Part shown: positions 5,852 through 29,462 of the stretch, in pieces
Layout of the letters: the number at the start of each line of letters is the position of its first letter
Position numbering within the stretch: position 1 is the stretch's first letter
Assembly: GCF_036967205.1 (NCBI RefSeq)
Contig: NZ_CP146022.1
Location: 6,820,001 to 6,884,000 of the forward strand
Source: Streptomyces sp. Q6
GTDB lineage: Bacteria > Actinomycetota > Actinomycetes > Streptomycetales > Streptomycetaceae
Length of the DNA stretch: 64,000 bases
Direction: 5' to 3'
Made by a program: the position numbers and the translations under genes
The notes under the pieces: generated by a model
Told to the model about the DNA's origin: nothing
Database searches by the model: none
The model's input: only the letters and a program-made list of their open reading frames with translations

Positions 5852-5933
5852 CGAGGCGTTCACTCCCTTATGTGCGTACGAGGGTGAGGAAAGCTGTGCG
5901 GGCACCGGGGAACGCCCAGGGGAGGCGCCCGCG

Positions 5934-5951
5934 TTCTACAGCCGCGTAGAG
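5934..5951. promoter_or_regulatory. Inverted repeat TTCTAC-N6-GTAGAG, distal copy
   Basis: An 18-bp inverted repeat lies 83 bp upstream of the spo0M start in the divergent spo0M/terB intergenic region. It has the same half-sites and the same six-base spacer as a second copy 218 bp away, which points to one regulator binding both sides of this region. Confidence 0.5.
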
Positions 5952-6151
5952 CATAGGCCGCGGTCGCGCCGCCGCGACGCCGGAACGGTGTCGCACGGCG
6001 GGAAAGTCCGAAAGGCGTCGTCCGAAGCGTCCAGGCGGACACCCTCGGGGCCACCGGCCGCGACCCGGGTGCGGACCGACGCCCGGCTCGACGACGCCCG
6101 TACCGCCCCGCGCTCCCAGGAAGGGCGGAACTTTTCCCCGCCCCCGCCAGT

Positions 6152-6169
6152 TTCTACACTGCTGTAGAA
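6152..6169. promoter_or_regulatory. Inverted repeat TTCTAC-N6-GTAGAA, proximal to terB
   Basis: A perfect six-base-arm inverted repeat ends 42 bp before the terB start codon. The spacer is ACTGCT. It matches the copy near spo0M in half-site and spacing, and its position fits an operator or activator site for terB. The regulator is unknown. Confidence 0.55.
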
Positions 6170-6211
6170 CAAAAGAAGCCCGGCACCACACCCTCAACCG
6201 GAGGAACACTC

Positions 6212-6667
6212 GTGGCCCTGTGGGACCGCATCAAGGAATCCGCGTCGACGATGCAGACGCAGCTCGTGGCGAAGAAGAACGACCTCAAGTCCGGCGCCTT
6301 CCGGGACGCCTCCATGGCGATGTGCGCCCTGGTCGCCGCCGCCGACGGCACCATCGACCCGTCCGAGCGGCGCCGCGTCGCCCAGCTGATCGCCTCCAAC
6401 GAGGTGTTGCAGAACTTCCCCGCGGACGACCTTCAGCGCCGCTTCGACGACAACCTGGACAAGCTGGTCGCCGACTTCGACTTCGGCAAGGTCAGCGTGT
6501 TGCAGGAGATCGCCAAGGCGAAGAAGAAGGAAGCCGAGGCGCGCGCCGTCGTCCAGATCGGCATCGTCATCGGCGGCGCCGACGGCGACTTCGACGCGAC
6601 CGAGCGGGGCGTCGTACGGGAGGCGTGCCAGATGCTCGGCCTGCCGCCGCACGAGTTCGACCTGTAG
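6212..6667 (+). CDS. TerB-family tellurite resistance protein
   Basis: A 151-residue all-helical cytoplasmic protein starting at GTG behind GGAGGA. It has the two metal-coordinating TerB repeats: ADGTIDPSERRRVAQLI and GADGDFDATERGVVREA, each with the acidic loop expected for calcium or other metal binding. TerB proteins belong to stress and tellurite-response systems and occur widely in Streptomyces. The gene is monocistronic, divergent from spo0M, and followed by a GC-rich hairpin. Confidence 0.85.
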   Translation: MALWDRIKESASTMQTQLVAKKNDLKSGAFRDASMAMCALVAAADGTIDPSERRRVAQLIASNEVLQNFPADDLQRRFDDNLDKLVADFDFGKVSVLQEIAKAKKKEAEARAVVQIGIVIGGADGDFDATERGVVREACQMLGLPPHEFDL

Positions 6668-6684
6668 ACGCCGCCGTGCGAGGA

Positions 6685-6708
6685 CCGGGCGGGCCCGCGC
6701 CCGCCCGG
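6685..6708. terminator. Bidirectional hairpin between terB and the M56 gene
   Basis: A nine-pair stem CCGGGCGGG / CCCGCCCGG with a six-base loop sits between two convergent genes, 18 bp after the terB stop. There is no T-tract, as is common in Streptomyces. Confidence 0.55.
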
Positions 6709-6719
6709 CCCCTTCCGCG

Positions 6720-7658
6720 TCACACCGGCGTCGCCGCGTGGAGCACGGCCGCCAGCGTCAGCGCCGAGTTCGCGGAGGCGGCGGCGGAGGTCACCGCACC
6801 GGCCGCGGCGGTCCACGCGGCGAGCCCCACCCCGGTGAACGCCATGGACCGGCCGGGCGCCCGAAGAGGCGGGGCGAGCAGGGCCGCGACCCTGCGGGGC
6901 ACGGGACCCGGCGCGGCCAGCGCGGCGAACACCGGCTCGCGCACCGAGCCACCGGACAACGCCACCTTGCCGATGGCCCGTGCGACCACCGTGCGGTCAC
7001 CGACGCGTTCGGCGGCCTCCTCGTCGGCCCACCGTTCGGCGGTGTACGCCACGGCTGAACTCAGCGGCCGCAGAAAGGGGTTGGCGCGGGCCGCGAGTCG
7101 GACGGTCAGCAGATGACGGTGGTGCCGGGCCGCCAGATGGGCCCGCTCATGGGCGAACACGGCCCGCCGCTCGGCGGGCCGCAGGTGCCCGAGCAGCGCC
7201 GTACTGACGACGATCCGGCCGCGCCCGGTGCGCGAGGCCGGCAGGGCGTACGCGTACGGCCGCGCATCCGGCAGGACCACGGCCTCGGTGCCCGGCAGGC
7301 CGGCGAGCGCCCGGTGGGCGCGCCGCCGCAGTGCGGCGTGCCGCCACAGCGTGCGCGCGCAGGCGACCACGACGGACAGCAGGGCGGGGATGGCCACCGC
7401 GCCCGCGATCTCGTCCTGCGGCACGGCGGCCCGCACCTCGGGGTCCGACCAGCTGTCGGGGAGTGGATTGCCCGGGAGTTGGGCGGTGCCGACCACCATC
7501 AGCAACGCCAGGCACACCGTGCTGCACGTGGCCATCACGGCGGCGACCGCCGTCAGGAGCCGGGTCGCGGTACGCGGAGGGAGGCGGTGGGCGGCGAGCC
7601 GTGCCACCGGCCAGGCCGTGAGCGGCAGGACCAGCGGCAGAAAGACGAAGATCCCCAC
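6720..7658 (-). CDS. M56-family membrane metallopeptidase
   Basis: A 312-residue integral membrane zinc peptidase of the BlaR1/MecR1-like M56 family. Hydrophobic segments occur at the N-terminus (IFVFLPLVLPLTAWPVARL), around residues 40-60 and 85-105, and at the C-terminus. The zinc motif HERAH is in AVFAHERAHLAARHHRH, and the third ligand is probably in the YTAERWADEEA segment. No penicillin-binding sensor domain is present. The GTG start lies four bases after the stop of the blaI-type gene, so the two are coupled. By analogy it may cleave its partner repressor in response to a cell-envelope signal. Confidence 0.85.
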   Translation of the reverse strand: MGIFVFLPLVLPLTAWPVARLAAHRLPPRTATRLLTAVAAVMATCSTVCLALLMVVGTAQLPGNPLPDSWSDPEVRAAVPQDEIAGAVAIPALLSVVVACARTLWRHAALRRRAHRALAGLPGTEAVVLPDARPYAYALPASRTGRGRIVVSTALLGHLRPAERRAVFAHERAHLAARHHRHLLTVRLAARANPFLRPLSSAVAYTAERWADEEAAERVGDRTVVARAIGKVALSGGSVREPVFAALAAPGPVPRRVAALLAPPLRAPGRSMAFTGVGLAAWTAAAGAVTSAAASANSALTLAAVLHAATPV

Positions 7659-15465: not shown

Positions 15466-15525
15466 GGCGGCTCTCACCGCTGTCCGGTCACGCGTCGTGG
15501 AGCCGGTCCGTTTCTCGGGCGTGCG

Positions 15526-15710
15526 CTACAGCCAGTCCCGCCGCTTGAAGATGAAGTACAGGCTCACGCACACCACCGCCATCAGCCCGATCGCGAACGG
15601 ATAGCCGAACCCCCACCCCAGCTCCGGCATGTTCTCGAAGTTCATGCCGTAGATCGTCCCCACCAGCGTCGGAGCGAACAGGATCGCCGCCCACGACGAG
15701 ATCTTCTTGA
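15526..15710 (-). pseudogene. Detached 3' end of corA (attL-side copy)
   Basis: The last 185 bp of a corA gene, including its TAG stop, with no 5' part. It aligns without gaps to the 3' end of the intact corA (28189-28373). I count 16 differences by eye, about 91 percent identity, mostly at third codon positions. The homology ends abruptly after GAGATCTTCTTGA. This is the original chromosomal corA tail displaced when an island inserted. Confidence 0.85.
15698..15710. other. Probable attL core of the island
   Basis: GAGATCTTCTTGA is the last block identical between the two corA tails, and sequence to the right diverges completely. The same 13 bp occurs at 28361-28373, so strand exchange most likely took place within it. 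Confidence 0.7.
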
Positions 15711-16155
15711 AGTCCTCTACCGCACCCCGTTGACCAGGGCATTTGCACTACAGGGGTGCCTTGACCTGGTGTGATGCCTCTTTCTGGGTCTTTCACGCTC
15801 GGTCAGCTCTATGCGGCCGGTTCTCCCCACGCGCTCCCCAGGAAGCTCGATTCTCCCCAGATTCTCCCCAGCGAGCTTGTCTGGTGGGCCGTGCCGGATG
15901 GGCTCGAAGGCCCGTTGCCCGGTCACTCCACGCAACGACCGGGCCCCTATGTTGGTGCCAGTTGGGCTCGCAGGGTGGAGGCGGCTCGACCTGTTCCCGA
16001 TGACGCATCATGTGGAGTGCGTGGCGATTCTCGAGCCGGTGGCTAAGGGGGCCTGAGCTGCGGTTTTGAGTGTGCGCGTTATATGCGGTGTGGGCGTTAC
16101 GGGCCAGTCCTTGACGCCGAAAGACGCTCGTGACGCTCGTTCTGATGGGGCGTCC
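15711..16155. other. Left island flank without a supported gene
   Basis: Contains tandem CTCCCCA-type repeats (15821-15871) and short open frames. One plus-strand frame ending at 16056 (MTHHVECVAILEPVAKGA) has protein-like composition and could be a relic C-terminus. No ribosome binding site or recognisable family was found. Confidence 0.35.
15850..15871. repeat. Candidate integrase arm-site repeat, left
   Basis: Two TTCTCCCCAG units separated by a single A, with further CTCCCCA words at 15824-15840. The same two-unit block occurs near the right end (28103-28123). These blocks lie about 140 and 240 bp from the core, as arm-type sites of tyrosine integrases do. Confidence 0.5.
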
Positions 16156-16981
16156 TCAGGCGGGCCGCGAGGGCGCCCGCAGGCCGACTTCGAATCCGCC
16201 TTGCCGAGCGGGCTCGGCGGCGAGGGTGGGGTGCGGGGTGAGCTCGGGTTCCCTTCCGCCGGAGGCGCGCAGCAGGGTGACCATGTGGCGCAGTTCGTCG
16301 AGGGTGTTCACGCTCAGGGTGCGGGTGGCGCGGGCGCCGTCGCGGGCCCGCGGGTCGCTGGCGGCGACCTGGAGTGCTCCGGCTGTACGGCGATGAGGCT
16401 GACCTGGGGGGAGACGACGTCGTGCATCTCGCAGGCCAGTTGGGCGCGTTCGCGGGCGAGGACGGTCTGGGCGTACAGGGCGCGTTCGTGTTCGCGGGCC
16501 TCCTCGGCCTCGGCGCGCTGGCGGGCCACGTCGCGTCTGGCCTGGACCAGCTGGCCGATCAGGACCGGGGCTGCGGCCGTGGCCAGCGTGTAGGCGAACT
16601 GGGCGAGCGTCCAGGTCTGGTCGCCGGAGAACGTGCCGGACAGGCGGCCACGTCAGAGTGCTGACCGCGGCGTTGAGCAGGGCGCAGCCGGCCAGCAGCG
16701 GGCGGTTACGGGAGTGCGCGGCCAGGGTGTACAGGGCGGCGAACGGCGCGACTGCCACGTCCATGAACACGAGCATGGGCAGGGTCAGCAGGAAGACGGT
16801 CAGGGAGGAAGCGCCCGCGCAGGAACAGGGCGGCGCAGCCCAGGGCGGCGCAGGCCCACATGAACGAGGCGGTGTCCTCGTTGAAGGGGTTGATCCATGC
16901 ATCGAGCGCGGCCAGTGCGACGAGGGCCGTGTCGAGGGCCCAGGGCGGTACCCGCCGCCACACTGTCAGGGCGGTGCTCAT
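16156..16981 (-). pseudogene. Decayed sensor histidine kinase
   Basis: A two-component kinase broken by at least three frame changes. The first frame gives membrane segments (ALDTALVALAALDAWINPF, then FMWACAALGCAALFL). A second gives LTVFLLTLPMLVFMDVAVAP. A third gives AQFAYTLATAAAPVLIGQLV and the HisKA_3 box with its His (CEMHDVVSPQVSLIAVQ). The last frame ends in LSVNTLDELRHMVTLLRASG. No complete ATPase domain remains. The family is the NarL-type kinase common in Streptomyces. Confidence 0.7.
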
Positions 16982-17057
16982 CGCCCGCCGCCCCGTTCTG
17001 CGGGTCGCTGTACTCGCTGCCGCTGAGCAGTCCGGCGCGCTCGGCGAGGAGCGAGGC

Positions 17058-17297
17058 CTAGGCGCGGCTGGAGACCCGTAATTTGGTCAGGATCAAGCTG
17101 CCGTGGTCCTTGACCGTGCCCGCGTTCAGGTGGATGTGGGTGCCGATGTCGGCGTTGGAGAGCACTTCCGTGATCAGGATGAGCACGTCGCTTTCGCGGT
17201 CGCTGAGCAGGCCACTCCTGCCACGTCCGCGTCCTGGGGCCGCCCGCTCCCGGGTGGTTGCGCAGCAGAGCGCGTGAGGCTTTCGGGGACATGGCCA
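17058..17297 (-). pseudogene. Decayed LuxR-type response regulator
   Basis: The partner of the broken kinase. The end of the receiver domain survives in one frame (MSPKASRALLR), and the DNA-binding domain survives in another as LLSDRESDVLILITEVLSNA and AGTVKDHGSLILTKL, a recognisable but degraded GerE/LuxR helix-turn-helix, ending at TAG. The receiver with its Asp is missing. It lies directly upstream of the kinase on the same strand, as intact pairs do. Confidence 0.65.
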
Positions 17298-17538
17298 CGC
17301 CGCCTGCCGGGAGACCGGTCGGCCACACTCCGAGCTGCCGAGGTTGTCGCCTCACTCAGGGGGCGGGGGATCTTTCTCGTCAGGCGGCTACGGGATTCAT
17401 CAACGCGATGGGTCGTGGATTCGATCGTCGTGGGACATCGCAAAGTGATGAAAGTGCCACAGGAAACCCATGGATGGGCATACTCTGCGTGAATCACCGC
17501 AGGTGGGCCGGGGCGGCCTGTAGTGCGGCGGAGGTGCC

Positions 17539-19827
17539 ATGGGTGGGGACCCGTATGTGTCAGCAAAAGAGGTCGAAGAACGCGCGCGGGCGGGGGTGCC
17601 GGATCCGTACGGTGACCAGGCTCTCCTGACGTCTGCCATGACGGAGGGCTACGACGCCGTCCCCAGCCAGGATCGCAGTCGTCTGCGGAGCTATCTCGAA
17701 GCGGTTGTCGCGGCCCGTCCGGCGCCGGTGCACACCACGGTCGCCTTCAACGCCGTGTACTTCGGGTACGAGCTCGGCGGCAACGGCTACGGCGGAAGCC
17801 CCCTGCGCCTCGATGATTTTCCGGTCATCACCTTCGGTGAGTGCGCTCCCGTGCTACCGGTCGGTGCCATGGTGTGTGTCGCCACCGGGTCGGACCCGCT
17901 TTACGCCGAAATCGTCTACCGAGAGGGCGCTCATCCGGAGGTGGACGAGCTCGGTGACGTACCGCCCTGGGTGTCGGGGGCGCCCGCGGGCGCCGAGGGC
18001 CCTGGCAGGCCAGGTGCGGACGCCGAACCACGGCGCAGGGAGTTACTGGTCCCTGACCTCCACGCCTTCGGCCCGGCCCTGAGCCTGTCACCGACCCAGC
18101 TTCATCGCTTGCGCACGCGCGGGCGATGGATCAATGAGGACGGGCATATCGCCGTCGACGTGTGCTATCCGTCTTCGCGAGCAGCCCGGCGCGACGATCT
18201 GACAGCCTATGCGCACCATCTCCTGACGACGGCTCGGGAGCAGCTTCTCAGCCCCTTCGTTCCCGTTTCCCTAGCCGCCCTGATGGGCGGCACGCACGAC
18301 GACGTTCTGCTGGCCGGACTGCTCGGTCTCCTCGACACCGTGCGCGGTGTCCTCAACTCCAGTGCTGTGTTGCGCACCTGGGGCGACTACGCCGTGACCC
18401 GTACCTCCCTCGCGGACTGCTGGCGAGACGTCGGACCGTTGGGCGGCGACGACCTCAGGTCTCTCGTGGCCGCGGTCGAGCGCGCGGCCACCCCGGCGAG
18501 GCGGCGACGCGGCCTCGCCGCTCCGGTCACGGTGTACACAGCGGTCGGACCGCGGCTCCGAGGTTTTCCCGGGGCGGCGGAGCGGCTCAGGGGGGCGGGG
18601 TACGCGGCTGCGGTGTGCCGGGCTAACGTGGCGCTCGCCGACGTGGTTCAAGGGGACAGCGACCAGGGCCTGTTCGGGAACGGCTCCCGGGTCACCCTCG
18701 ACGACGCCTTCGAGGGTGGAGGGGTGTGGCGGTCTCATTATCCCGGTGACGCGGAGGCACCCGGGGACCCCCTGTCCCCGGCCGGGCGCGGCTGGAACTC
18801 CACACTGCCCGCACTGCCGGAAACGGAAACGGAGCTGGAACCGGTAGATCCGCCCCTCGCCGACGACGCCTCCCTCAGCACCGGCGAACTCCTACGGAGC
18901 GACGCGCAGGAGATCGTCTGGCTGACGCCCCTGCGGCTGGCCCATCTCATCGACGGCTGGTTTCACCTGCCCCCATTGGTTGCGGAGGAGCTTTGCCGGG
19001 CGCACGGCGCGCACCCCACGCTTCGCCTCGAACTCGACCACGCCGGTGAGACGTTGGACGTGAAGGAGGTGGTGCAGGATGTCGCGGCCGAACTCGGTGA
19101 CGACTCGGGTCGGTTGACGGGAATCTTCTGGCCCCGTGACTTCTTCCCCGGCCTGATGCTGGAGCTGCGCCAGCTCCGGGGCGAGAAGGTGCTTCGGCTG
19201 GCCACAACGCGGTTGCGGGAACGGGTGCAGGCCGGTGACCGTGATACGGGGCACTGTTTCGACCCTCGTGTGCTCACCAGGGAGGACGTGCCGGGCAGCA
19301 GCCGCCATGGTGACAGCGCGGTCGGACTGGGCCCCCGGCAACTGGTGATGCGCACCGTGCGCCGTTGCGGTCTGCTCACCCTGGACGGCCATGCTCTGCT
19401 GGACCGGTCGGTCCTGCCGAGCGCGGTCTACGGGCGCCCGCCGGCCCGATCGCAGGCCGCTGCCCTGGACGCGGCTGTCGCGGAACTGCTCGCGGAACGT
19501 CTTCTGGAGCCGGCCCTCGGCAGTCGGGACGACTGGGGGCAGCCGCACTTCCCGCCGCGTGAGGGACAGCAGACGGTTCCCCTCATCGGCTACCGCCCCA
19601 TCCGGCAGCGGGTGATACGTCCGTGGGGCGGTGGCGAACCGGACGGCGAGGGATTGAGCGGCGCTCAGTTTGTCGCAGGTCATCTGCGCCGCCTGCGGCC
19701 GGGGTGTCTGCCCAGCGACGTTCAGCGCGCCGCCTTCCGGGAGCACTGCCGCAGGCTCGGCAAGGCGGACGGCTGGGAACTGCCGTACGGCTACACGTTC
19801 GTGACCGAGCACACTCGCGGCCGCTGA
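17539..19827 (+). CDS. Uncharacterised 762-aa island protein, partner of the giant NTPase
   Basis: A 762-residue protein with GGAGG five bases before the ATG. No signal peptide, membrane helix, Walker motif or nuclease signature is evident. Visible features are a Gly-rich segment near residues 75-85 (GYELGGNGYGGSPL), a conserved-looking FPVITFGECAPVLPVGAMVC, a charged variable middle, and a C-terminal part with short helical segments (AALDAAVAELLAERLLEPAL). Composition suggests a soluble, multi-domain cytoplasmic protein. It ends 97 bp before the 2022-aa NTPase gene on the same strand and is very likely co-transcribed with it. I do not recognise the family. Location on an island next to a large NTPase makes phage defence a reasonable hypothesis, but only that. 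Confidence 0.75.
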   Translation: MGGDPYVSAKEVEERARAGVPDPYGDQALLTSAMTEGYDAVPSQDRSRLRSYLEAVVAARPAPVHTTVAFNAVYFGYELGGNGYGGSPLRLDDFPVITFGECAPVLPVGAMVCVATGSDPLYAEIVYREGAHPEVDELGDVPPWVSGAPAGAEGPGRPGADAEPRRRELLVPDLHAFGPALSLSPTQLHRLRTRGRWINEDGHIAVDVCYPSSRAARRDDLTAYAHHLLTTAREQLLSPFVPVSLAALMGGTHDDVLLAGLLGLLDTVRGVLNSSAVLRTWGDYAVTRTSLADCWRDVGPLGGDDLRSLVAAVERAATPARRRRGLAAPVTVYTAVGPRLRGFPGAAERLRGAGYAAAVCRANVALADVVQGDSDQGLFGNGSRVTLDDAFEGGGVWRSHYPGDAEAPGDPLSPAGRGWNSTLPALPETETELEPVDPPLADDASLSTGELLRSDAQEIVWLTPLRLAHLIDGWFHLPPLVAEELCRAHGAHPTLRLELDHAGETLDVKEVVQDVAAELGDDSGRLTGIFWPRDFFPGLMLELRQLRGEKVLRLATTRLRERVQAGDRDTGHCFDPRVLTREDVPGSSRHGDSAVGLGPRQLVMRTVRRCGLLTLDGHALLDRSVLPSAVYGRPPARSQAAALDAAVAELLAERLLEPALGSRDDWGQPHFPPREGQQTVPLIGYRPIRQRVIRPWGGGEPDGEGLSGAQFVAGHLRRLRPGCLPSDVQRAAFREHCRRLGKADGWELPYGYTFVTEHTRGR

Positions 19828-19924
19828 CCTTTCGCGGCTTTCGCGGGTCCACCGCCGCGGTCCTCTCTTCTCGTCGTCGCCCAAGGAACTCACCCCATCA
19901 CTCACAGAAACGGAGTGCGTGTAC

Positions 19925-22900
19925 ATGCACGACCACTACCGCGTCATAACAGGGCTGCCGTGGTCCCCGCCGAGCGTCTCGGCCGAGGACCTCGAAGGCC
20001 TGGCCGCCGCGCTGAATACCTTGGATTCCCCGGCCGTCGCTGCCCTGAACGACCTCACGGCGGACATGGTGGAACTCGCCTTCAACTCCTTGCGGCCCAA
20101 ACACCGCCAGGAGTTGCTCTCCAGTCTGGGCATCCGCATGTCGGCCCCTCGACGGGTGAGCAGTGCCCTGTGTCGGGATGTCCTCACCAGGTTGCGGCGC
20201 CAGGTGCGGCAGCACAGCTGCACATGCGGGATCAGGGGCCTCACGGTCACCGTGATGAACCAGGTGGGCGACTTGGTCCTGGCGCGCGACGGGCAGCCGG
20301 TTCCCGACCCTGTTGCCCGGTGGGGCGCCACGCTGGTCCGGGCCACCGTGTTCGCATGGTGCAACGCCTCTGTCACCGACGCCCACATCCTTGCCTGGGT
20401 GGCGGACCAGGACTGGTTCGGGGTGACGGCCGACGAGGAAGAGTCGGCTCGGCTCGCCGCTGTCGCTGCCGCGGCCCGGCCCCTCGTGGAGGCGTACCCC
20501 GATTTAGCCCCTGGAGCGGCGGACGAGGACGAGCTGGCACTCGCGGAGGACAGGAAACCCGGGCGCGCTGACATCGCCCACCGGCCAGGCACCAGCGACC
20601 CCCTTCTGGAGACCGCGGCGGCGGACCCTGGCATGTCGCACGAGGAGACCTCTCCTGCGTCCGGCAGCACCGGGACCATGGAGGAAACGGCTCCCGAGGA
20701 GGTATGTCGGCAGCTGGAGGCCGCCCTCGCGGGAGCCCGCCAAGCCGCGGAGAAGGTTACCGACGCGGTCATGGACGGCCGCCCTCCGCAGGATGAGGAC
20801 CTGGCTCATATTGCCGCGCTGAGCACTGTCTTTGACGAAGTGGACGCGGTGTTCCGGGCCGCGGGGATCAAGAAGGTGCCACGTCGCCTGGAGGACATGA
20901 CGCGCGCCGCCCGCGCACACCGGACAGCGCGCGAGCGTGACCTCCAGGTCCGCGGAACGTTGCGGGAATTGCTGGACGTCGCGTGCCGCCCGGACAGCTC
21001 CGCCGCTGCCGCCGCTGCCGCCGAGGCAGTGCGCGGCGCGGCGCACCGCCTGCTGGACGTGCCAGCGTGGGGGGAGCCGCAATACGAGGAGAGCGCCGCG
21101 CTCGCCGCCCTGGCCCGGCTCATCAGGCTGGGACGGCAGGCGGATGCCGCGACGGAGATCCTGACACTGCAGGGACAGGTCGTACGGGTCCTGCCCACGT
21201 GCGCCATGGCGGTGCTCATCGCTCCCGAGCTGACGCTGGACCAGCCGGTGGACGGTGGCCCGTACCCCGCCGGGAGCGACGAGGCGCACGGCTCTGCCGG
21301 GCCCGCCAACGTCGAGGCGACCGCAGAACACGGAAGCGTGCAGTCGGCCCCGCCGACCGAGGCGATCGCGCCCCAGCCCGCCGCCGAGCCGGAATCCACG
21401 ATGACCGCCGCACCGGCGCACACCCCCGACCCAGACGCCGTGCCGACCGCCGACAGCGACCAGGCGCCCCCCACGTCTCCTGACGCGCCTGTCCAGGCGC
21501 CCGCCGCACCCACGCTTTATTCCGTCGAGGACACGCCCGTCCAGGAAGCGGCCCCGACGGCGGACGACGCCACCGATGAGCCCGCGGTCGAGGGGGTCCT
21601 GGCGCAGCTGGTCGTGGAGCGGCGCTTCGGACTCGCCCACCATGTGGCGGGGGCCGCCGGCCACCCCGAGGCCCAGGTGGCGGCGATCCGCCTGGCCGGT
21701 GCCGCAGCGCTGCTCACCTCCGGGGACAGCCAGAGCGCCCGGCTGACGGCGGACCTGCTCCAGGAGTACGGCGGATACGCGGGCCAGGATACCGAGGGGA
21801 GCGAACTTCTCCTGCTGCCCGCCCTGCTGCGTACCGCGCTGATCACTGGTGACCACACTGCGGGCGCTCAGCTCAAGGCGCTGGTGCCGAGGCTTCCGGA
21901 CAGGTTGGGGGAGGCGGCGGCGGCCGTCGCCGACCGTGCCCTCAGCGGAGCCCTGCTGATCGCCTCGCCACTGGTCGCTGACGTCTCCGAGACCGAGGCC
22001 CGACTGCGGGAACTGCGCGATCAGGGCAGTGCCCTGCTCGCGCCGCAGCGGCTGCGGTTCGCACGGGCGACGGAGATCGCCAAACGCTGGCTCGCCCCCG
22101 ACGACGGGATGCTCGGATCGCTGCTCACGACCGTCGTCGGTGACAACCGCGACGCGTTGCAGCAGGTGCGGGATCAGGCCGATCGGCTGTCGAAATTGGC
22201 CGAGGTCAACAGCGAGATCGACCGCATGGACCGCAAGTACCGCTCGTCCAGCGGCAAGCCGCTCCAGGGCTCCGGGCGCCAGGACCTGGTGCATCTCGTG
22301 GAGCGGGCCGCCAGCCTGGGCAAGGAGTGGTGCCTGGCAGTCGACGGCACCCGTCGCGGCGACCGTTCCGACGGCAGCCGGGCGGTCAAGGAGATCTCCT
22401 CCCTGCGGCAGTTCCTGCTGGACGGCAGGGAGGCGGCGCTGGGCGAGCTGGAGCGGTTGGCGCGGCGCCCGGACGCCCTCTCGGGCGCGATGGCCTGGGC
22501 GGCCCACGCCTCGATGGAGGAGCTTTTCGCTCTGCTGGCCGGCGACACCGTGACCGTTCGTCACGGTGGCCCGGTCGAGGCTGAACTCGCCCTCGAGGCC
22601 GAGAGGTTGAAGGTCCAGGACTCCCACGACGGGCCACCGCCGTCGCTGGGTGAGCTGCTGATCGCGGTCGACCGGAGCTGGCAGGACGCCCTCGACGAGC
22701 GACTCGCGCGCGACGCCTTCACCGCGGCCCGCGACATCGTCAACCTCGCCGGACGAGGGCTGTTGCCTGCCGCTGGGACGGGCGAGTTCGTCCCGCCCAC
22801 GGAAGCCGAGATCGACGACAGGGAGACCGCCCGGCGTGTGCAGTTGAGGAAGGTACATGACGCACTCGTCGCCGAGCTGCACCGTGCGCAGGCCGACGGC

Positions 22901-25900
22901 GCCGTGACCGAGGACCAGGACCTGGGCCTTCAGGAGTTGCTCGCCGACGTCCACAACCGCCTCGAAAGCGCCGACCGGCACGACCTGCTGCACGTGCGGC
23001 GGGCGCTCGACACGGTACGGAGCGGCCTACCAGCCTTCCGGGAGCAGGCGGCGGGTCGGATCCGGGCACGCCTCGACGCCCTGGACCCCTCCGTGGAGGA
23101 GCGGGCCCAGGTCCTGAGGCGCCTGGAGACGAACGACCTGGCCACCGCCGCCGACCTCGTCTACTTCCTGGAGATCGGAGAGCCCGTCCCGGAGATCGAG
23201 GGCGGCGAGTCCCATCTGACTGAGTTCTTCCCGGCTGTGCCCGACGGCCTGCCAGGAGGGATCGACCATGATCTCATCGAGCTGGTCCGGTCGGGCGGCA
23301 AGCATCCGATGGTCCCGGTCCTGGACTACGGCGGCCTTTCCACCGACGAGGCGGCGCTGGCGGCCGACGCCCTCGACGAGTGGCGCGAGCTTGCCGCCAC
23401 AGAACGCAAGGACCGGCTCCAGGTGGCTCCGACGCGACAGGTGCCGCCTCTCCTCAAGCTCCTCGGCTACGACGCCAAGAGCGCCAGGCCGCTCGACGAC
23501 CGATCCCAGCACCGGCGGGAATACCGTCTCTTCGAAGCGACCGGTGTGGAGATCAACGGCAGGGCGAAGGCGCCCGCGTTCGGCTCGCAGATCAAGGAGC
23601 AGGGCGGCAACCTGCGGGTGATGATGGTCTGGGGCCGGCCGCCCGCCAAGGTCGTCATGAGTTGGGCGGAGCGCGACTCCAGCGGAGCGAGCCTTCTCGT
23701 CATCTACTTCGGCACGCTGAGCCGTGAGGCCCGAGTGGAACTCGCCGCCGGCTCCGACCGTTTGCAGCCGCTACTCGTGGTGGACGACGCTGCCCTCGCC
23801 TATCTCTCGGCCTGTGGCAATCGCCAGGTCAGCGCCGCGACGCAGACCCTGCTGCCCTTCTCCGGCGTCAACCCGTACATCAGGGAGAAGCGCGGTCGGA
23901 TCGGCGGCGAGATGTTCTACGGCCGCGACGCCGAACGCAAGAGCATCCTCGATCCGCGCGGCACTCAGGTCATCTACGGCGGCCGGGGCCTGGGCAAGTC
24001 GGCGCTGCTCGCCGACGCCGGGGAACGGTTCACGGAGCAGCGCCCTGGCTATCACCAGACGGTGTACGTCAACCTCGACCAGGAGAACATCGGCAAGGGC
24101 AGCTCGCGTGGGCCGGAGGCGCTGTGGAGCGTCCTGCTGAGGGAACTGACTGTGGCACAGATACTCGATGACCGGCCGCAGGGGCGCGGAAAACGACAGG
24201 AGGAGACCTCCGAGCGGGTGCGCGCCGGCATCCGGGCCTGGCTGGACGGGGACTCTCGTCGCCGGCTGCTGATCCTGCTCGACGAGTGCGACCAGTTCTT
24301 CGAGGCCGACGCCCCGCGGTTCGACCAGACCAAGAAGCTCAAGGGCCTCGGGTCCGACACCAAGGACGCGGCGAAGGTCGTCTTCGCCGGCCTTCACTCC
24401 GTGCAGCGCTTCTCCAAGCTCGCGAGCAATGGGCCGTTCGGCCACCTCGCCCAGACCCCGAAGGTCATCGGCCCGCTGGCTCCCCAGTCAGCTGCGGAAC
24501 TGCTGGTCGAGCCGATGCGGGCGCTCGGGTTCGAGTTCAAGGACCTGGATCTCGTCAACCGGGTGCTCGGCTACTGCTCGTACCAGCCGTTCCTGCTGCA
24601 GATGTTCGGGCACCGGCTGGTGGAGCTGATGCACCGCAAGCGGACGCGGCGAGGCGCCGGGGAGACACCCTACGAGGTGGAGGTGACCGACATCGAGATC
24701 GTGGAGTCGGACGCTGCGCTCCGGGACGGCATCTCAGCGGCCTTCAAGGACACGCTGAGCCTTGACCACCGCTACGACGTGATCGCCAATGTGCTGGCGT
24801 ACCACGCCCGCCATCACGGCCTGGAAGTGCGGCTGAGCGACACCGAGTTGCGCGAGGAGTGTGAGACGTACTGGCGCAGAGGGTTCGAACAGCTCGACAC
24901 CGAGGGTTTTCGCGCCTACCTCTCCGAGATGGTCGGTCTCGGCATCCTCGCGCCCAACCACGACGGCCTGGGCTGGCATCTGCGCGGGCCCAACGCCCTG
25001 CGCATGATCGGTACCTCCCACGAGGTGGAGGCACGTCTACTCAGGGCTGAGCAGGACTGTGAACTACAGGAGAGCATCGTGCAGGAGGGCCGCCCCGAGC
25101 TCCCCGACGGCCGGCCGGCTCCGCTGACCAACACCCAGCTCGACGACCTCCTGGGCGCGCGGTCCAACCGGACCAGGGTCGTCCTCGGCAGCACTGCCAC
25201 TGGAGTCACGGACATCGCTCGGACCCTGCGTACGGTTGCCGGACCGATCGACGGCTGGACGCTGCCGCCCGTGGGCAAGCCCAGCGTCTACAAACAGGAA
25301 CTCACCGGCGGCCGCCCCCGAGAACGACGGGTTGTCATCAGCGACTTCGTCAATTACCGGGACCCGGTTCGGCCGGAGACCTGCCGCGAGGCCGTCGACC
25401 TGGCCGAGACGCTGCTGCCCGCCACCCCGGGGGTCACCCGCGCGGTCGTCCTTGTCACCGACCCCGCTCAGCTCGCACTGTGGCGCTCCCTGCTGACGGG
25501 AACCGAACCCACCTCGGCCGCCCCGGTGGTGCTGCGTAGGCATGACCACCGCAGCCTGCGCGGCTGGGCCCAGCGCATCAACATGTTCCACACGGAGGAC
25601 CGGCTGGACCGTCTCCACGAACTGACCGGCGGCTGGCCCCTCCTGGTGGACCAGGGCCACCGCCTGCACGAGGAGTTGGGCGACCCCGACGAGGTGTTGC
25701 GCCGTCTGGCCGACCTCCGTGCGGACCGGGCCGAGGCCCGCGCATTCGCCGAGGCGACTGGCGTGTACGCGGATCCCCTGCTGGCCGCCGGATACCAGGC
25801 CCTCAACGACGAATTCAAGGACGGCCTCTTCGACCTGGAAGGCGCGGTGACCGCCGTCGCGCTCCAGATCGATGACGAGGACGAAGCACGGTGGATCGTC

Positions 25901-25993
25901 AACTGCCTCGACGCCCTCCAGGTCTTCGACCGCGAGGGCACTCCGTTGCGCCTGGAACCGGTGCTCCGGGAGTGCGCGGCGCTCAACGGGTGA
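19925..25993 (+). CDS. Giant 2022-aa island NTPase with tandem AAA/STAND-like modules
   Basis: Start ATG 19925 is chosen because GGAG lies nine bases upstream; the GTG six bases earlier is too close. Residues 1-190 form an unrecognised N-terminal region with a CxC (HSCTCG near residue 97). Residues about 440-560 are a Pro/Ala/Glu-rich linker. Residues 560-1250 look like a long helical array. A beta-rich segment (EYRLFEATGVEI, VMMVWGRPPAKVVMSWAE) precedes FYGRDAERKSIL and a full NTPase: Walker A GGRGLGKS (Lys1358) and Walker B LLILLDECDQ (Asp1453-Glu1454). A winged-helix-like region (about 1600-1700) follows, then a second module with a degenerate P-loop (VVLGSTATGVTDIA) and a GGWPLLVD motif. 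This is a sensor or motor-like architecture; the role is unknown. Confidence 0.8.
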   Translation: MHDHYRVITGLPWSPPSVSAEDLEGLAAALNTLDSPAVAALNDLTADMVELAFNSLRPKHRQELLSSLGIRMSAPRRVSSALCRDVLTRLRRQVRQHSCTCGIRGLTVTVMNQVGDLVLARDGQPVPDPVARWGATLVRATVFAWCNASVTDAHILAWVADQDWFGVTADEEESARLAAVAAAARPLVEAYPDLAPGAADEDELALAEDRKPGRADIAHRPGTSDPLLETAAADPGMSHEETSPASGSTGTMEETAPEEVCRQLEAALAGARQAAEKVTDAVMDGRPPQDEDLAHIAALSTVFDEVDAVFRAAGIKKVPRRLEDMTRAARAHRTARERDLQVRGTLRELLDVACRPDSSAAAAAAAEAVRGAAHRLLDVPAWGEPQYEESAALAALARLIRLGRQADAATEILTLQGQVVRVLPTCAMAVLIAPELTLDQPVDGGPYPAGSDEAHGSAGPANVEATAEHGSVQSAPPTEAIAPQPAAEPESTMTAAPAHTPDPDAVPTADSDQAPPTSPDAPVQAPAAPTLYSVEDTPVQEAAPTADDATDEPAVEGVLAQLVVERRFGLAHHVAGAAGHPEAQVAAIRLAGAAALLTSGDSQSARLTADLLQEYGGYAGQDTEGSELLLLPALLRTALITGDHTAGAQLKALVPRLPDRLGEAAAAVADRALSGALLIASPLVADVSETEARLRELRDQGSALLAPQRLRFARATEIAKRWLAPDDGMLGSLLTTVVGDNRDALQQVRDQADRLSKLAEVNSEIDRMDRKYRSSSGKPLQGSGRQDLVHLVERAASLGKEWCLAVDGTRRGDRSDGSRAVKEISSLRQFLLDGREAALGELERLARRPDALSGAMAWAAHASMEELFALLAGDTVTVRHGGPVEAELALEAERLKVQDSHDGPPPSLGELLIAVDRSWQDALDERLARDAFTAARDIVNLAGRGLLPAAGTGEFVPPTEAEIDDRETARRVQLRKVHDALVAELHRAQADGAVTEDQDLGLQELLADVHNRLESADRHDLLHVRRALDTVRSGLPAFREQAAGRIRARLDALDPSVEERAQVLRRLETNDLATAADLVYFLEIGEPVPEIEGGESHLTEFFPAVPDGLPGGIDHDLIELVRSGGKHPMVPVLDYGGLSTDEAALAADALDEWRELAATERKDRLQVAPTRQVPPLLKLLGYDAKSARPLDDRSQHRREYRLFEATGVEINGRAKAPAFGSQIKEQGGNLRVMMVWGRPPAKVVMSWAERDSSGASLLVIYFGTLSREARVELAAGSDRLQPLLVVDDAALAYLSACGNRQVSAATQTLLPFSGVNPYIREKRGRIGGEMFYGRDAERKSILDPRGTQVIYGGRGLGKSALLADAGERFTEQRPGYHQTVYVNLDQENIGKGSSRGPEALWSVLLRELTVAQILDDRPQGRGKRQEETSERVRAGIRAWLDGDSRRRLLILLDECDQFFEADAPRFDQTKKLKGLGSDTKDAAKVVFAGLHSVQRFSKLASNGPFGHLAQTPKVIGPLAPQSAAELLVEPMRALGFEFKDLDLVNRVLGYCSYQPFLLQMFGHRLVELMHRKRTRRGAGETPYEVEVTDIEIVESDAALRDGISAAFKDTLSLDHRYDVIANVLAYHARHHGLEVRLSDTELREECETYWRRGFEQLDTEGFRAYLSEMVGLGILAPNHDGLGWHLRGPNALRMIGTSHEVEARLLRAEQDCELQESIVQEGRPELPDGRPAPLTNTQLDDLLGARSNRTRVVLGSTATGVTDIARTLRTVAGPIDGWTLPPVGKPSVYKQELTGGRPRERRVVISDFVNYRDPVRPETCREAVDLAETLLPATPGVTRAVVLVTDPAQLALWRSLLTGTEPTSAAPVVLRRHDHRSLRGWAQRINMFHTEDRLDRLHELTGGWPLLVDQGHRLHEELGDPDEVLRRLADLRADRAEARAFAEATGVYADPLLAAGYQALNDEFKDGLFDLEGAVTAVALQIDDEDEARWIVNCLDALQVFDREGTPLRLEPVLRECAALNG

Positions 25994-26146: not shown

Positions 26147-26428
26147 ATGAGGATCAAGGAGCCGGTGTCGTCGTCCCCATGGGCGAGGCGGAGTCGCTCC
26201 GCGCTCCCCAAGGCGTCAGGGTTCCCGGGCAGCTTGCAGCTGAACATAAGCAAGGCGGAGATCATCCGGCAGGGCATCCACCTCGCGGCCATGGCGAACC
26301 GGGTCTGGGACGAGCCTCACTTCTCCCGCACTTTCGAGGGGGCTGGTCGCATCCTCGGCAAGAGCGAGGTGCGTGACACCGTGGCTGACGCTGTGTGCCG
26401 CAGGATCGAGGCCGGTACTGTCGCGTGA
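26147..26428 (+). CDS. Probable antitoxin of a broken toxin-antitoxin pair
   Basis: A 93-residue frame whose C-terminal 60 residues (KAEIIRQGIHLAAMANRVW, EGAGRILGKSEVRDTVADAV) look like a real small helical protein. Its TGA overlaps the next GTG by four bases (GTGA), and that frame begins MIIVIADASGLL, typical of PIN-domain toxins. Such an overlap is characteristic of VapBC-like pairs. The N-terminal third is low quality, so the true start may be nearer 26230. Assignment rests on context and motif resemblance. Confidence 0.45.
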   Translation: MRIKEPVSSSPWARRSRSALPKASGFPGSLQLNISKAEIIRQGIHLAAMANRVWDEPHFSRTFEGAGRILGKSEVRDTVADAVCRRIEAGTVA

Positions 26429-27369
26429 TCATCGTCATCGCGGACGCCTCCGGGCTCCTCACGGTGGGCCTGAGGGACATCTCGGCGACCGTCCTGCGCA
26501 GCTACATCGCTACGCTCGAAAGCGAGTGCGCGCCGCGCTATGCCCGGCAGATCCTCACGACCCTCTCGAACATCTTCGAGACGGCCATCGACGACAAGCG
26601 CCTCGTACGCAACCCAATGCGCGCGAAGTCGGTGCGCTGGCCCAAGGTGCCGGAGGACCAGCGGGAGGCGTGGCCGCTGGAGACAGCGCAACGCGTGCGG
26701 GACGTGATCAAAGCGCGCTACCGCATCGCGGTCGTGGTCGCTCTCGGCTGCGGGCTGCGCCAAGGGGAGGTCTTCGGCCTTTCTCCGGAGGACATCGACT
26801 TCCAGCGCGGAGTCATTCGCGTGCGTCGACAGGTACAACTGCTCAACGGCCGGCTGTACTTCGCCCTGCCCAAGGGCGGGAAGACGCGCATCGTCGACAT
26901 GCCGGGGTCGGTCGCCGCCGAGCTGGCCGCGTACTTCCTTCAGTACACGGCGGTCGAGGTCGAGTTGCCGTGGGGCGGGCCGGAACCGGAGAGGGAGAAG
27001 CGGCGGTTCTCCCTCGTCCTGACGACGACGTACGGCAACGCGATCCGCGCGAACATCTTCAACGTCGAGGTCTGGAAGCCTGCCATCGCCGCGGCCGGGG
27101 TCATCCCTCTGCGGGAGAAAGGGGAGCGGTGGAAGGCGTCACGCAAGGACGGGTTCCACGTGCTCCGGCACACCTTCGCCTCGGTCATTCTCGAAGCGGG
27201 CGAGTCCGTCGTCACGTTGGCTCGATGGCTGGGCCACTCCAGTCCGACCATCACGCTCGACCACTACGCGCACTTCATGCCGGAGGCAGGCGGGAAGGGG
27301 CGCGCGGCGGTCGACGCACTGCTCGGTGTGGTTCCCGAGTACGTTCCGGACAACCTAACTCGGGCGTGA
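26425..27369 (+). CDS. Tyrosine recombinase truncated at the N-terminus and fused to a PIN-toxin start
   Basis: A 314-residue frame. The first 12 residues resemble a PIN toxin (MIIVIADASGLL), then the sequence becomes a phage-type integrase beginning inside the core-binding domain (GLRDISATVLRSYIATLES). The catalytic domain is complete: Arg in GCGLRQGEVFGL, Lys in LPKGGKTR, His-x-x-Arg in FHVLRHTFAS, His in LGHSSP and Tyr in LDHYAHF. Related integrases are 60 to 100 residues longer at the N-terminus, so the arm-binding part is missing. Catalysis may be retained, but regulated integration or excision is probably lost. It is followed by a perfect 14-bp-stem terminator. Confidence 0.75.
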   Translation: MIIVIADASGLLTVGLRDISATVLRSYIATLESECAPRYARQILTTLSNIFETAIDDKRLVRNPMRAKSVRWPKVPEDQREAWPLETAQRVRDVIKARYRIAVVVALGCGLRQGEVFGLSPEDIDFQRGVIRVRRQVQLLNGRLYFALPKGGKTRIVDMPGSVAAELAAYFLQYTAVEVELPWGGPEPEREKRRFSLVLTTTYGNAIRANIFNVEVWKPAIAAAGVIPLREKGERWKASRKDGFHVLRHTFASVILEAGESVVTLARWLGHSSPTITLDHYAHFMPEAGGKGRAAVDALLGVVPEYVPDNLTRA

Positions 27370-27443: not shown

Positions 27444-27989
27444 TCAGTCCGTGAGGCTCTTGCGGCGAACACGCAGTGAGTACGTCCGCTTTCCCCCGGG
27501 GCGGCCGCTGCTGCCCCAGCCGCCGCTCGTAGCCACGTTCCACCCGCGCTGTTCCTTCATCTGGGCGGCGAAGGCGCGCAGGTCGTTGATCTCGCAGCCG
27601 CAGTCCAGTGTGACGCTGACGCCGATGTACGGGCTTCGAGGGCTGTCCGTTGCGTAGGGGTTCGGCTCCCATCGCACTTCGTGTACGTGCTCCTTGAGGC
27701 CGGTGCGCTCGACGTCGTGCTTGATGCCGTGGGCTTTCGCGTACTCGTCCAGGTCATCGATCACGAACAAGTGACTCGACCACTCGCCGGGCCAGACCGC
27801 GAACAGGCGGGACTCGCCGGCCGCGGCCCGCTCGTACGCGGCGCGGTCGTCCCCGTGGGTCACCGTTCCGTCCTCGTGGACCTCGATGTAGCACGTCGTA
27901 CGAGCGGTGTAGGGGAAGTCCTTCCCTGACTCCGCGGCACTTCTCGGTTCCAACTGATCCTCCCGGCCCGCGCGGTTCCATGTGGCCAT
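27444..27989 (-). CDS. Hypothetical 181-aa island protein
   Basis: A 181-residue protein with an ATG start but a weak ribosome binding site. It is rich in acidic and aromatic residues (FAVWPGEWSSHLFVIDDLDE) and has a CGC pair in SVTLDCGCEINDL and a basic C-terminal tail (RTYSLRVRRKSLTD). No membrane segment is present. No family is recognised. Convergent orientation with the integrase gene suggests accessory cargo or a regulator of the island. Confidence 0.6.
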   Translation of the reverse strand: MATWNRAGREDQLEPRSAAESGKDFPYTARTTCYIEVHEDGTVTHGDDRAAYERAAAGESRLFAVWPGEWSSHLFVIDDLDEYAKAHGIKHDVERTGLKEHVHEVRWEPNPYATDSPRSPYIGVSVTLDCGCEINDLRAFAAQMKEQRGWNVATSGGWGSSGRPGGKRTYSLRVRRKSLTD

Positions 27990-28102: not shown

Positions 28103-28123
28103 TTCTCCCCAGATTCTCCCCAG
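28103..28123. repeat. Candidate integrase arm-site repeat, right
   Basis: Two TTCTCCCCAG units joined by one A, identical to the block at 15851-15871. On the circular form both would lie in the same orientation on either side of the core, as expected for P and P' arms. Confidence 0.5.
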
Positions 28124-28188
28124 AGGGTTCCGCAGTGCATTCGAAACCATTCACTTACGTGAAGTCGGTCAAGCGTCGCGAGTCGCCG

Positions 28189-29351
28189 CTACAGCCAGTC
28201 CCGCCGCTTGAAAACGAAGTACAGGCTCACGCACACCAGCCCCATCAGCCCGATCGCGAACGGATACCCGAAGCTCCACCCCAGCTCCGGCATGTTCTCG
28301 AAGTTCATCCCGTAGATCGTCCCCACCAACGTGGGTGCAAAGAGAATGGCCGCCCACGAGGAGATCTTCTTGATCTCCTCGTTCTGCTCGAACCCCGCCT
28401 CCGCCAGCGCCCGCATCTCCGCGTTCTGCTGCTGTGTCACCAGCGTCGCGTTCACCGTGAGGATGTCGGCGAGGGCCTGGCGGAAGCCGTCGACGCGTTC
28501 GCTGGTGTGCGTGACGTGGTCGGCGACGTCGCGGAGGTAGCGCTGGAGTTCCTCGTCCGTGCCGTACTTCGCGAAGCCTGCCATCAGGCCGTGCAGCATG
28601 CCGATCAGCGGGCGGGTCGCGCGCTGGAACTCGACCATTTCCCGGGAGAGTTCGTAGATGCGGCGGGAGACCTCGGGGGCGCCGGAGAAGACCTCCGTCT
28701 CGATCTCGTCGATGTCGTTCTGGACGCCGTCGACGACCGGGGCGTAGCCGTCCACCACCGCGTCGAGGATGGCGTAGAGGATCGCTTCGGGGCCCAGGCG
28801 CAGGAGCTCGGGGGTCTTCTCCATGCGGTGGCGGACCGCCGAGAGGTCGGGGGCCGCGCCGTGCCGGACGGTGATGAGGAAGTCGGCGCCGACGAAGACG
28901 TGCAGTTCACCGAAGTCGACCTCCTCCGACGCGTCCAGGTAGCGGGCCGCGCGCAGGACGACGAAGAGGGTCTCGCCGTACCGCTCCAGCTTCGGACGCT
29001 GATGGGCTTCCAGCGCGTCCTCGACCGCGAGCTCGTGCAGGTCGAACTCGGCGGCCAGCGACTTCAGTTCGGCCTCGGTGGGGCGGGCCAGACCGATCCA
29101 CGCCACCGTGTCCGGCTTCTCGCGCAGCCGGCGGTACGTGTCCGTGAGGGTGTCGGGGCTCGCCACGCGGACCCCGTCCCGGTACAGCGCCGTGTGCACC
29201 ACACTGTCCGTCTCCTGCGGCGCGGTGCCGGGGTCGGCGACCGGGGCCGGCGGTGCCTCGGGCGTCGGACGGGGTCCGCGCCACGGCGCCAGGCGTACCG
29301 GCGCCCGCCGTGCCGGCCGCCCTGGCCAGGTCGCTCCTGCCGTCGCGGCAT
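28189..29351 (-). CDS. corA: CorA-family magnesium/cobalt transporter, frame disturbed near the 5' end
   Basis: A CorA-type channel. The cytoplasmic domain includes WIGLARPTEAELKSLAAEF and HQRPKLERYGETLFVVLRA. The two C-terminal membrane helices carry the GMN signature (TIYGMNFENMPELGW), and the protein ends KRRDWL. The best start, ATG 29351 with AAGGAGG, begins MPRRQERPGQGG in another frame. The main frame takes over near a CCCC run around 29295, implying a one-base deletion. Without it, initiation could be at GTG 29202, or less likely ATG 29421. The last 185 bp came from the island and differ from the displaced original tail, yet give an intact C-terminus. Confidence 0.8.
28361..28373. other. 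Probable attR core inside corA
   Basis: GAGATCTTCTTGA, identical to the attL core. To its right the sequence is the native 5' part of corA; to its left is the island-borne tail. Confidence 0.7.
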
Positions 29352-29462
29352 CGCCGCCTCCTTCCGCCGTGGGGTCCCTGGCAGGGTAACGAGCAAAGGT
29401 GACGCACCACGGCACCGGCATTGAGGACAGCTTCTGACCTCGATCGCCGCTACCGTCCCCGT

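Follow-up and report, generated by a model that had tools for sequence, protein, structure and literature searches.

An unnamed, multi-phylum ATPase family and its partner gene on a Streptomyces integrative element: a conserved pair with a probable role in defence

The DNA analysed here is a stretch of 64,000 nucleotides (nt) from Streptomyces sp. Q6 (contig NZ_CP146022.1, positions 6,820,001 to 6,884,000; hereafter, the window), in which an integrative element, inserted where corA ends (3' end), carries two adjacent genes, encoding a protein of 762 amino acids (aa), P1, and an ATPase of 2022 aa, P2. According to our analysis, P1 and P2 form a conserved two-gene system, whose probable role, judging from the genes next to its relatives, is in defence. 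P2 belongs to a family of STAND/ORC-Cdc6-like ATPases of ~2000 aa that is unnamed, spans several phyla and has variable partners, and the nuclease-type neighbours of its relatives suggest an undescribed kind of bacterial immune system. We give an even chance to the reading that P1–P2 is the smallest version, found in Streptomyces, of a system built around an ATPase and directed against invading DNA. The pair comprises the following features (NTPase, nucleoside triphosphatase; wHTH, winged helix-turn-helix):

17539-19827, + strand: P1, 762 aa, intact, of an unnamed family, with an N-terminal region (residues ~20-440) and a C-terminal module (~456-762)
18904-19824, + strand: C-terminal module of P1 (residues 456-762), which occurs elsewhere as separate reading frames and looks winged-helix-like by eye
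19925-25993, + strand: P2, 2022 aa, intact, STAND/ORC-Cdc6-like ATPase
21551-23413, + strand: region of P2 before the NTPase (residues ~545-1165), helical by eye, which aligns in distant relatives
23411-25318, + strand: core of P2 (residues 1165-1800), multi-phylum (alignments, tblastn), with a PxFGS...G..R region, an AAA domain and a wHTH-like region
23978-24001, + strand: Walker A, GGRGLGKS (P2 residues 1354-1361)
24269-24292, + strand: Walker B, within LLILLDECD (around P2 residue 1455)

Conservation of the gene pair

Both genes lie on the same strand, with 97 nt between the stop codon of P1 and the ATG of P2 at 19925. P2 as listed starts with a GTG at 19919 (2024 aa), while the alignment of relatives favours the ATG (2022 aa). 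When the window was compared with six relatives, the ratio of nonsynonymous to synonymous substitution rates (dN/dS, NG86) was 0.21-0.31 for P1 and 0.23-0.31 for P2: both are under purifying selection. Moreover, the divergences of P1 and P2 are correlated (r = 0.89 over 276 pairs from 24 loci), a value reached in none of 2000 permutations. The pair is thus not a product of chance, because dN/dS is low and the divergences of the two proteins go together.

A scan of the genome collection with P2 recovered 40 loci (38 from Streptomyces, one from Kitasatospora and one from an “Actinobacteria bacterium”), with best-segment identities of 53-93%. In 34 of them, which include all 34 loci whose P2 match begins within the first three residues, the gene immediately preceding P2 is P1; the remaining six have partial P2 matches only, some of them at contig starts. 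Matches to P1 were found in 28 of 295 Streptomyces genomes, and are near-full in 22 (counting G046 and G007, with two pieces of one frame each, and G110, which is full); in all 22, a P2 core stands just downstream, on the same contig and strand. The other six genomes hold a fragment (G192) or a match to the C-terminal part only (G279, G026, G287, G157 and G195). P2-core matches with E <1e-100 also occur in G042 and G079, in broken frames, and a second, weaker-scoring group of P2 cores is present in 13 genomes, G015 having both kinds. Pairs with ~30% P2 identity were further found on Streptomyces plasmids (L073 and L074). Some genomes were reached twice (G014/L009, G093/L026, L103/L111 and L073/L131), and counts from the separate searches are not additive. 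The original prediction, made on the window alone, was to be given up if homologues of the two genes occurred apart. For the wider family this is half the case: near-full P1 was never seen without P2 (22 of 22 genomes), but P2-type ATPases lack P1 in 26 loci.

Ten of the 40 relatives (L002, L005, L009, L010, L013, L015, L025, L028, L038 and L039) lie downstream of similar genes (733 and 449 aa), which in L002, the one locus scanned for domains, code for an amino-acid permease and a TRAM-domain methyltransferase; this flank looks like a host site and a probable insertion hot spot. Near the pair, L003 also has a GmrSD-type restriction gene (5559-7379) and L015 an RHH-Fic toxin-antitoxin pair (6181-6869).

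Architecture of P2 and P1

At E values up to 1, the only Pfam matches of P2 are AAA_16, AAA_22, ATPase_2 and AAA_14; those to AAA_16 (E 1.7e-6) and AAA_22 (E 9e-5), over residues 1333-1496, are weak and below the curated cut-offs. Among the relatives, AAA_22 is above its cut-off in L073, L074, L076 and L078, and below it in L072, L075 and L077. With a Walker A, a Walker B and an AAA_16/AAA_22-type domain, P2 has the features of the STAND/ORC-Cdc6 clade. Across the family, Walker A is present in 77 of 77 cores, and a loosened pattern recovers a DExD-type Walker B in 74; with a stricter pattern, the two motifs were recovered together in 58 of the 77. The three cores missing the DExD-type Walker B read LDEID (two) or LDETN (one). 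The Walker motifs of P2 itself are intact and canonical, as had been stated, but they sit about two thirds along the chain rather than in its middle. Scored per 60 residues, conservation is poor at 181-240 and at 421-540; the N-terminal region (1-180) precedes the first of these stretches, and a better conserved region (241-420) lies between them. The conserved PxFGS...G..R region (~1165-1320) lies ahead of the NTPase, which is followed by a wHTH-like part and by a C-terminal part resembling a second, degenerate AAA, the fold labels (helical, wHTH, second AAA) having been assigned by eye.

Searches of Pfam, NCBIfam, PADLOC and PDB sequences agree with the earlier view that neither P2 nor P1 matches a named family over its whole length, and neither gene matches a conjugation or housekeeping family model (Pfam, NCBIfam). 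Searching PDB sequences with the two proteins, and with the profiles built from them, brought nothing of use. In one cyanobacterial relative, on a Brasilonema plasmid (L077, 5624-15883), a sigma-70 factor and a P2-type core are in one frame, which is followed by a PLD-SNF2 helicase.

P1 has no Pfam, NCBIfam or PADLOC match, and no PDB match better than E 1.2, the match at that value, to an aldolase, being taken as chance. H65, N71, E124, D173, N363, D368, D388, D389 and R398 are invariant in all 15 full-length P1 sequences aligned, among which identity falls to 26%; this permits an active site. A protein that has no recognised domain, yet keeps acidic and histidine residues invariant over such a divergence, may hold an undescribed activity. 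As for its C-terminal module, we dropped the idea that it also occurs fused to UvrD helicases, longer stretches showing separate frames of ~420-620 aa; the frame of L066 has a weak UvrD_C_2 match upstream of the part that resembles the module. These separate frames lie near other large genes, and two carry a Zn-ribbon-like stretch (the neighbour in L170 lying outside the scan). One of them comes after an SF1 helicase gene in L171 (601-7669), another after a NERD-kinase gene, presumably PglW-like, in L172 (6916-12732).

Partners of the P2 family

Outside the P1 group, the usual neighbour of P2 is a HEPN-like gene. Of the 26 loci where a P2-type gene is present but P1 has no match, 18 have it next to P2 (in L200-L205, where the sequence ends before the P1 position, the absence of P1 rests on the 295-genome P1 scan). 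The gene comes directly after P2, and its product has a C-terminal RNxxAH-type motif; RX4H was found in 10 of 10 partner proteins read, in agreement with the RX4-6H motif of HEPN ribonucleases. These partners are mutually similar in most phmmer comparisons (E 1e-117 to ~1e-5), with no match between some pairs. Pfam HEPN_Swt1 is matched weakly, below cut-off, in L076 and L078, and the partners of L093, L094, L096 and L133 have no Pfam match. In the P1-less loci, the HEPN-like search gave a weak match in L167, and no such neighbour was found in L075, L077, L112, L132, L166, L168 and L169. A HEPN-like match is absent from every P1-bearing locus searched. On an Agrobacterium plasmid (L165, 7344-19544), the P2-type ATPase and the HEPN-like gene are followed by ThiF and patatin-like genes.

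A FastTree phylogeny was computed from 77 cores (79 chosen loci, minus L031 and L038, dropped for short cores). With a midpoint root, the P1 group forms one clade (support 1.0) amid HEPN-partnered and partnerless branches; P1 labels were set by group, L018, L033, L036 and L039 being labelled without P1 in their available sequence. The simplest reading of this exchange of partners, which depends on the root, is that the HEPN partner would have come first and would later have been replaced by P1.

Within the P1 group, seven divergent loci (L097, L098, L099, L100, L113, L116 and L117) have a ~2000-aa helicase directly upstream of P1, which in L097 is a 2076-aa frame including the upstream stretch and in L098 a partial sequence. 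The four helicases covered by domain scans (L099, L113, L117 and, minus its N-terminal part, L097) have DinG-type, DEAD and Helicase_C domains. RNase_T is found in L099 and L117, i.e., two of the three scanned over that part, with no RNase_T at E 0.01 in L113. In L099 (3-5954), an RNase_T exonuclease, a DinG-type helicase and a DpdF-like DEAD helicase make up one protein of ~1980 aa before P1. The C-terminal part of the helicase matches 8 of the 295 genomes, 6 of them strongly (the two weak matches, of 35-49 residues in G051 and G002, being left out of the six). All six genomes, which account for six of the seven loci, are P1-positive, with 30-81 nt between the end of the helicase match and the P1 match that follows. 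No helicase of this kind was found near L114, L115, L073 and L074.

The third kind of partner is pPIWI-RE. In eight loci, it is linked to a P2-type gene by fusion, by a common operon or by proximity. One annotated reading frame encodes both pPIWI-RE and the P2 core in L071 (Bradyrhizobium) and in L164 (Microvirga); in Azospirillum (L072), they occupy successive genes, with an RNase H domain split between them; all three operons go on with a HEPN-like gene. The operon of L097 reads helicase, P1, P2, pPIWI-RE, while in L100 pPIWI-RE adjoins P2 convergently. It is 2.8 kb from a P2 truncated by the contig start in L036, a locus of the same close group as the window's, and 3.5 kb from P1 in L131 (plasmid); in L176, the triad begins ~9 kb past P2, with an RNase H domain at 15.6 kb. 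The pPIWI-RE gene of L131 (14721-17267, Streptomyces plasmid) is apparently frameshifted near its end. Among the 22 sampled genomes, pPIWI-RE is within 20 kb of the pair in two (0.042 expected) and within 10 kb in one (0.025 expected), the expectations assuming 100 loci (rounded) in 295 genomes of 8.6 Mb. According to the sections consulted of the respective papers (a scope that applies to all literature cited here), DNA can be cut by a PIWI-RE protein under the guidance of RNA (PMC10991935), and DinG acts on R-loops (PMC3702460). The links to DinG-type helicases and pPIWI-RE suggest that the system acts on R-loops or replication intermediates.

These partners bear on another expectation of the original prediction, namely that an effector, if there is one, would be new. 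The pair itself shows no known effector, but the partners of its relatives are of known nuclease types (HEPN-like, pPIWI-RE, exonuclease-DinG helicase). Some relatives do adjoin defence-type genes, a vicinity that the prediction had put up for testing.

Comparison with known systems

The three-gene pPIWI-RE island (Burroughs 2013, PMC3702460; PprPIWI/PprRE in PADLOC) resembles the relatives of P2 in its link to DinG-type helicases, but the consulted part of its description mentions neither a P2-type ATPase nor P1. The window's locus lacks the tested features of that system: its Y-REase and Z-helicase have no match in the window (tblastn, E 1e-6).

P2 shares traits with BrxC and DUF499, large STAND/ORC-Cdc6 AAA proteins that contain wHTH regions and have been proposed to act as scaffolds (PMC12839542). 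In the same source, PglW has an inactive STAND domain, and DUF499 (Hma/BR systems) shows HEPN fusions. P2, however, has no Pfam family match to BrxC/PglY or DUF499 at E 1, and, unlike in BrxC, DUF499 and PglW, its NTPase comes after a long N-terminal half. Nor was a methyltransferase or PglZ partner, as in BREX, seen among the neighbours read, the window genes having been scanned in part. By analogy, the core of P2 may work like the BrxC/DUF499 STAND/ORC-Cdc6 scaffold, in spite of the missing family match. The resemblance to sensor NTPases of anti-phage systems claimed in the original prediction is loose. Avs proteins have an N-terminal nuclease and a C-terminal sensor array. P2 is like such STAND sensors in being a large NTPase with a helical-looking array that could plausibly be a sensor, but no N-terminal nuclease is seen. 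With the array ahead of the NTPase, and a wHTH-like and a second, degenerate AAA-like region (by eye) behind it, P2 is closer to the descriptions of BrxC, DUF499 and PglW than to Avs. P2 matches no Avs model of PADLOC, its only hit in that collection being PDC-S01 at E 0.074, in the P-loop region.

The HEPN-like partner of the P1-less relatives recalls the Swt1-like HEPN associated with an ATPase (PMC3710099) through its weak HEPN_Swt1 matches and its RX4H motif. It differs from the latter, as far as that source goes, in being a separate gene, and one not found in the window's P1 clade. Likewise, ExoDinG (PMC11981726) and the helicase upstream of P1 (L099 and L117) both combine an RNase_T part and a DinG-type helicase, but the helicase of the divergent loci has a second, DEAD/DpdF-like helicase, and it is absent at the window's locus. 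No account of the P1–P2 pair was found in the consulted parts of the open-access literature searched (e.g., PMC3702460, PMC7641849, PMC10853773, PMC3710099, PMC12458937, PMC11981726, PMC10482375, PMC12839542 and PMC10991935).

Proposed mechanism and competing explanations

In the mechanism that we propose, P2 would be a STAND/ORC-Cdc6-like switch, with its N-terminal half as scaffold or sensor. Binding of ATP would drive assembly, the wHTH-like C-terminal part would set P2 on DNA, and P2 would then license an interchangeable effector. Outside the P1 clade, this effector would usually be a HEPN-type ribonuclease; inside it, P1 would take that place, probably as a targeting or effector subunit with a DNA-binding C-terminal module, and the invariant D, E, H and N residues of its N-terminal region could form an active or ligand site. 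Divergent loci would add the DinG-DEAD helicase (usually with an exonuclease domain), and in some of them pPIWI-RE nearby. A bolder version, which we regard as doubtful, would make P2 the head of a new immunity class: the ATPase would check the invader and release exchangeable effectors (HEPN RNase, oligonucleotide-guided pPIWI-RE nuclease or exonuclease-DinG helicase), and P1 would be an effector of a new type that took the place of the RNase in actinomycetes. The analysis links an unannotated multi-phylum ATPase family to the pPIWI-RE nucleases, about whose biology much is still to be learnt, and the natural series of partners (HEPN-like, P1, helicase, pPIWI-RE) lends itself to the study of effector exchange.

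Several results weigh against a defence system of this kind. Around the loci of the close group, the window's among them, the searches brought up no helicase, and there the pair may do something else. PADLOC at E 0.01 returned no match for P1, P2 or the P1- and P2-type relatives tried, and neither P2 in phage records nor P1 in viral contigs was matched. By genome, pPIWI-RE is not enriched (7 of 22 P1-positive genomes vs. 85 of 295 overall), and the search that found PF13032 (pPIWI-RE) in those 85 genus genomes gave no match in the window's genome, nor in the control genomes of that search; its closeness to the pair may reflect shared defence islands instead of joint action. Among the 26 P1-less loci, eight are without a clear HEPN-like neighbour. 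Finally, P1 has no recognised domain; its profile aligned with 13 partner proteins at probabilities of at most 0.2% (hhalign), and the best E value against 10 partners was 0.013 (phmmer, no filters).

Other roles must then be weighed. The pair could serve its element, as an ORC-like ATPase and a DNA-binding partner governing replication, excision or maintenance. This would suit its location on an integrase-bearing element, the ORC/Cdc6/STAND kind of the NTPase and the DNA-binding look (by eye) of the C-terminal module of P1. Nevertheless, we hold it to be unlikely: an integrase was matched in only 3 of the 40 loci (available flanking DNA, 25-29% identity), the pair occupies varied sites, e.g., beside the TRAM-domain methyltransferase family in 10 of the 40, and a replication role fits the HEPN-like, pPIWI-RE and nuclease-helicase partners poorly. 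The notion that the pair is the core function of the element was dropped, the integrase not being common to the loci. A host module for DNA repair or R-loop processing is quite unlikely as well. The linked helicase, with its DinG-type and DEAD domains and an RNase_T in two of three scanned, would be at home there, and a PIWI-RE knockout in Pseudomonas is more sensitive to ciprofloxacin (PMC10991935), but the patchy spread (22 of 295 genomes with near-full P1), the element and plasmid locations, and the presence of GmrSD and RHH-Fic among the neighbours of some relatives speak against it.

We consider it very unlikely that the pair regulates transcription, as a STAND-type regulator and a partner that binds DNA. 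The wHTH-like regions seen by eye and the sigma-70 factor of L077 point that way, whereas no flanking gene family is common to more than 10 of the 40 loci, and the relatives have nuclease-type partners. Lastly, functionless, decaying cargo is highly improbable: the neighbouring genes of the element do look like remnants and its integrase is short, but the dN/dS values, the two intact reading frames and the kept Walker motifs largely refute decay of the pair itself. Compared with these explanations, the ATPase-centred defence system remains our preferred reading.

The integrative element at corA

The element and the sequences at its ends comprise the following features:

15524-15717: left end repeat, a displaced corA 3' end; direct repeat of 194 nt, with 91% identity to its counterpart at 28187-28380
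15821-15871: TTCTCCCCA repeats, with copies at 15821, 15851 and 15862
26395-27369, + strand: tyrosine integrase of the element (Phage_integrase, E 1e-15), N-terminally short
27444-27989, - strand: 181-aa frame, no match reaching a cut-off
28187-28380: right end repeat, within the intact corA 3' end; 194-nt direct repeat
28189-29421, - strand: intact corA (CorA, E 1.5e-63)

Its corA repeats and its integrase identify the element as integrative, 12.7 kb long and inserted at the corA 3' end. The repeats are spaced by 12,663 nt, and the pair (17539-25993, 8.45 kb) therefore makes up ~67% of the element. Both the two-thirds share and the status of only large intact cargo, as first proposed, are confirmed, no further large intact gene having been found between the repeats. 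Apparent gene remnants fill 15750-17500, among them (16156-17100) an apparently broken two-component sensor or regulator (weak HisKA_3 match, E 0.066). In the whole window, TTCTCCCCA occurs five times, the remaining two copies being at 28103 and 28114, and these repeats are possible integrase arm sites. The integrase matches Phage_int_M over model positions 41-91 of 96 only, and is without most of its N-terminal arm-binding part; given this short integrase, the element may have lost its mobility.

In a comparison aimed at the empty site, the corA end was matched in relatives, but the matches of the left flank fell elsewhere. The corA 3' end is present twice in G006, 11.6 kb apart (C7:313754 and 325350), and twice in G007, 2.9 kb apart (C1:7079500 and 7082568), and these paired ends may represent other insertions at the same site. 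G012 has three copies, 0.1-1.2 Mb apart, which may be corA paralogues.

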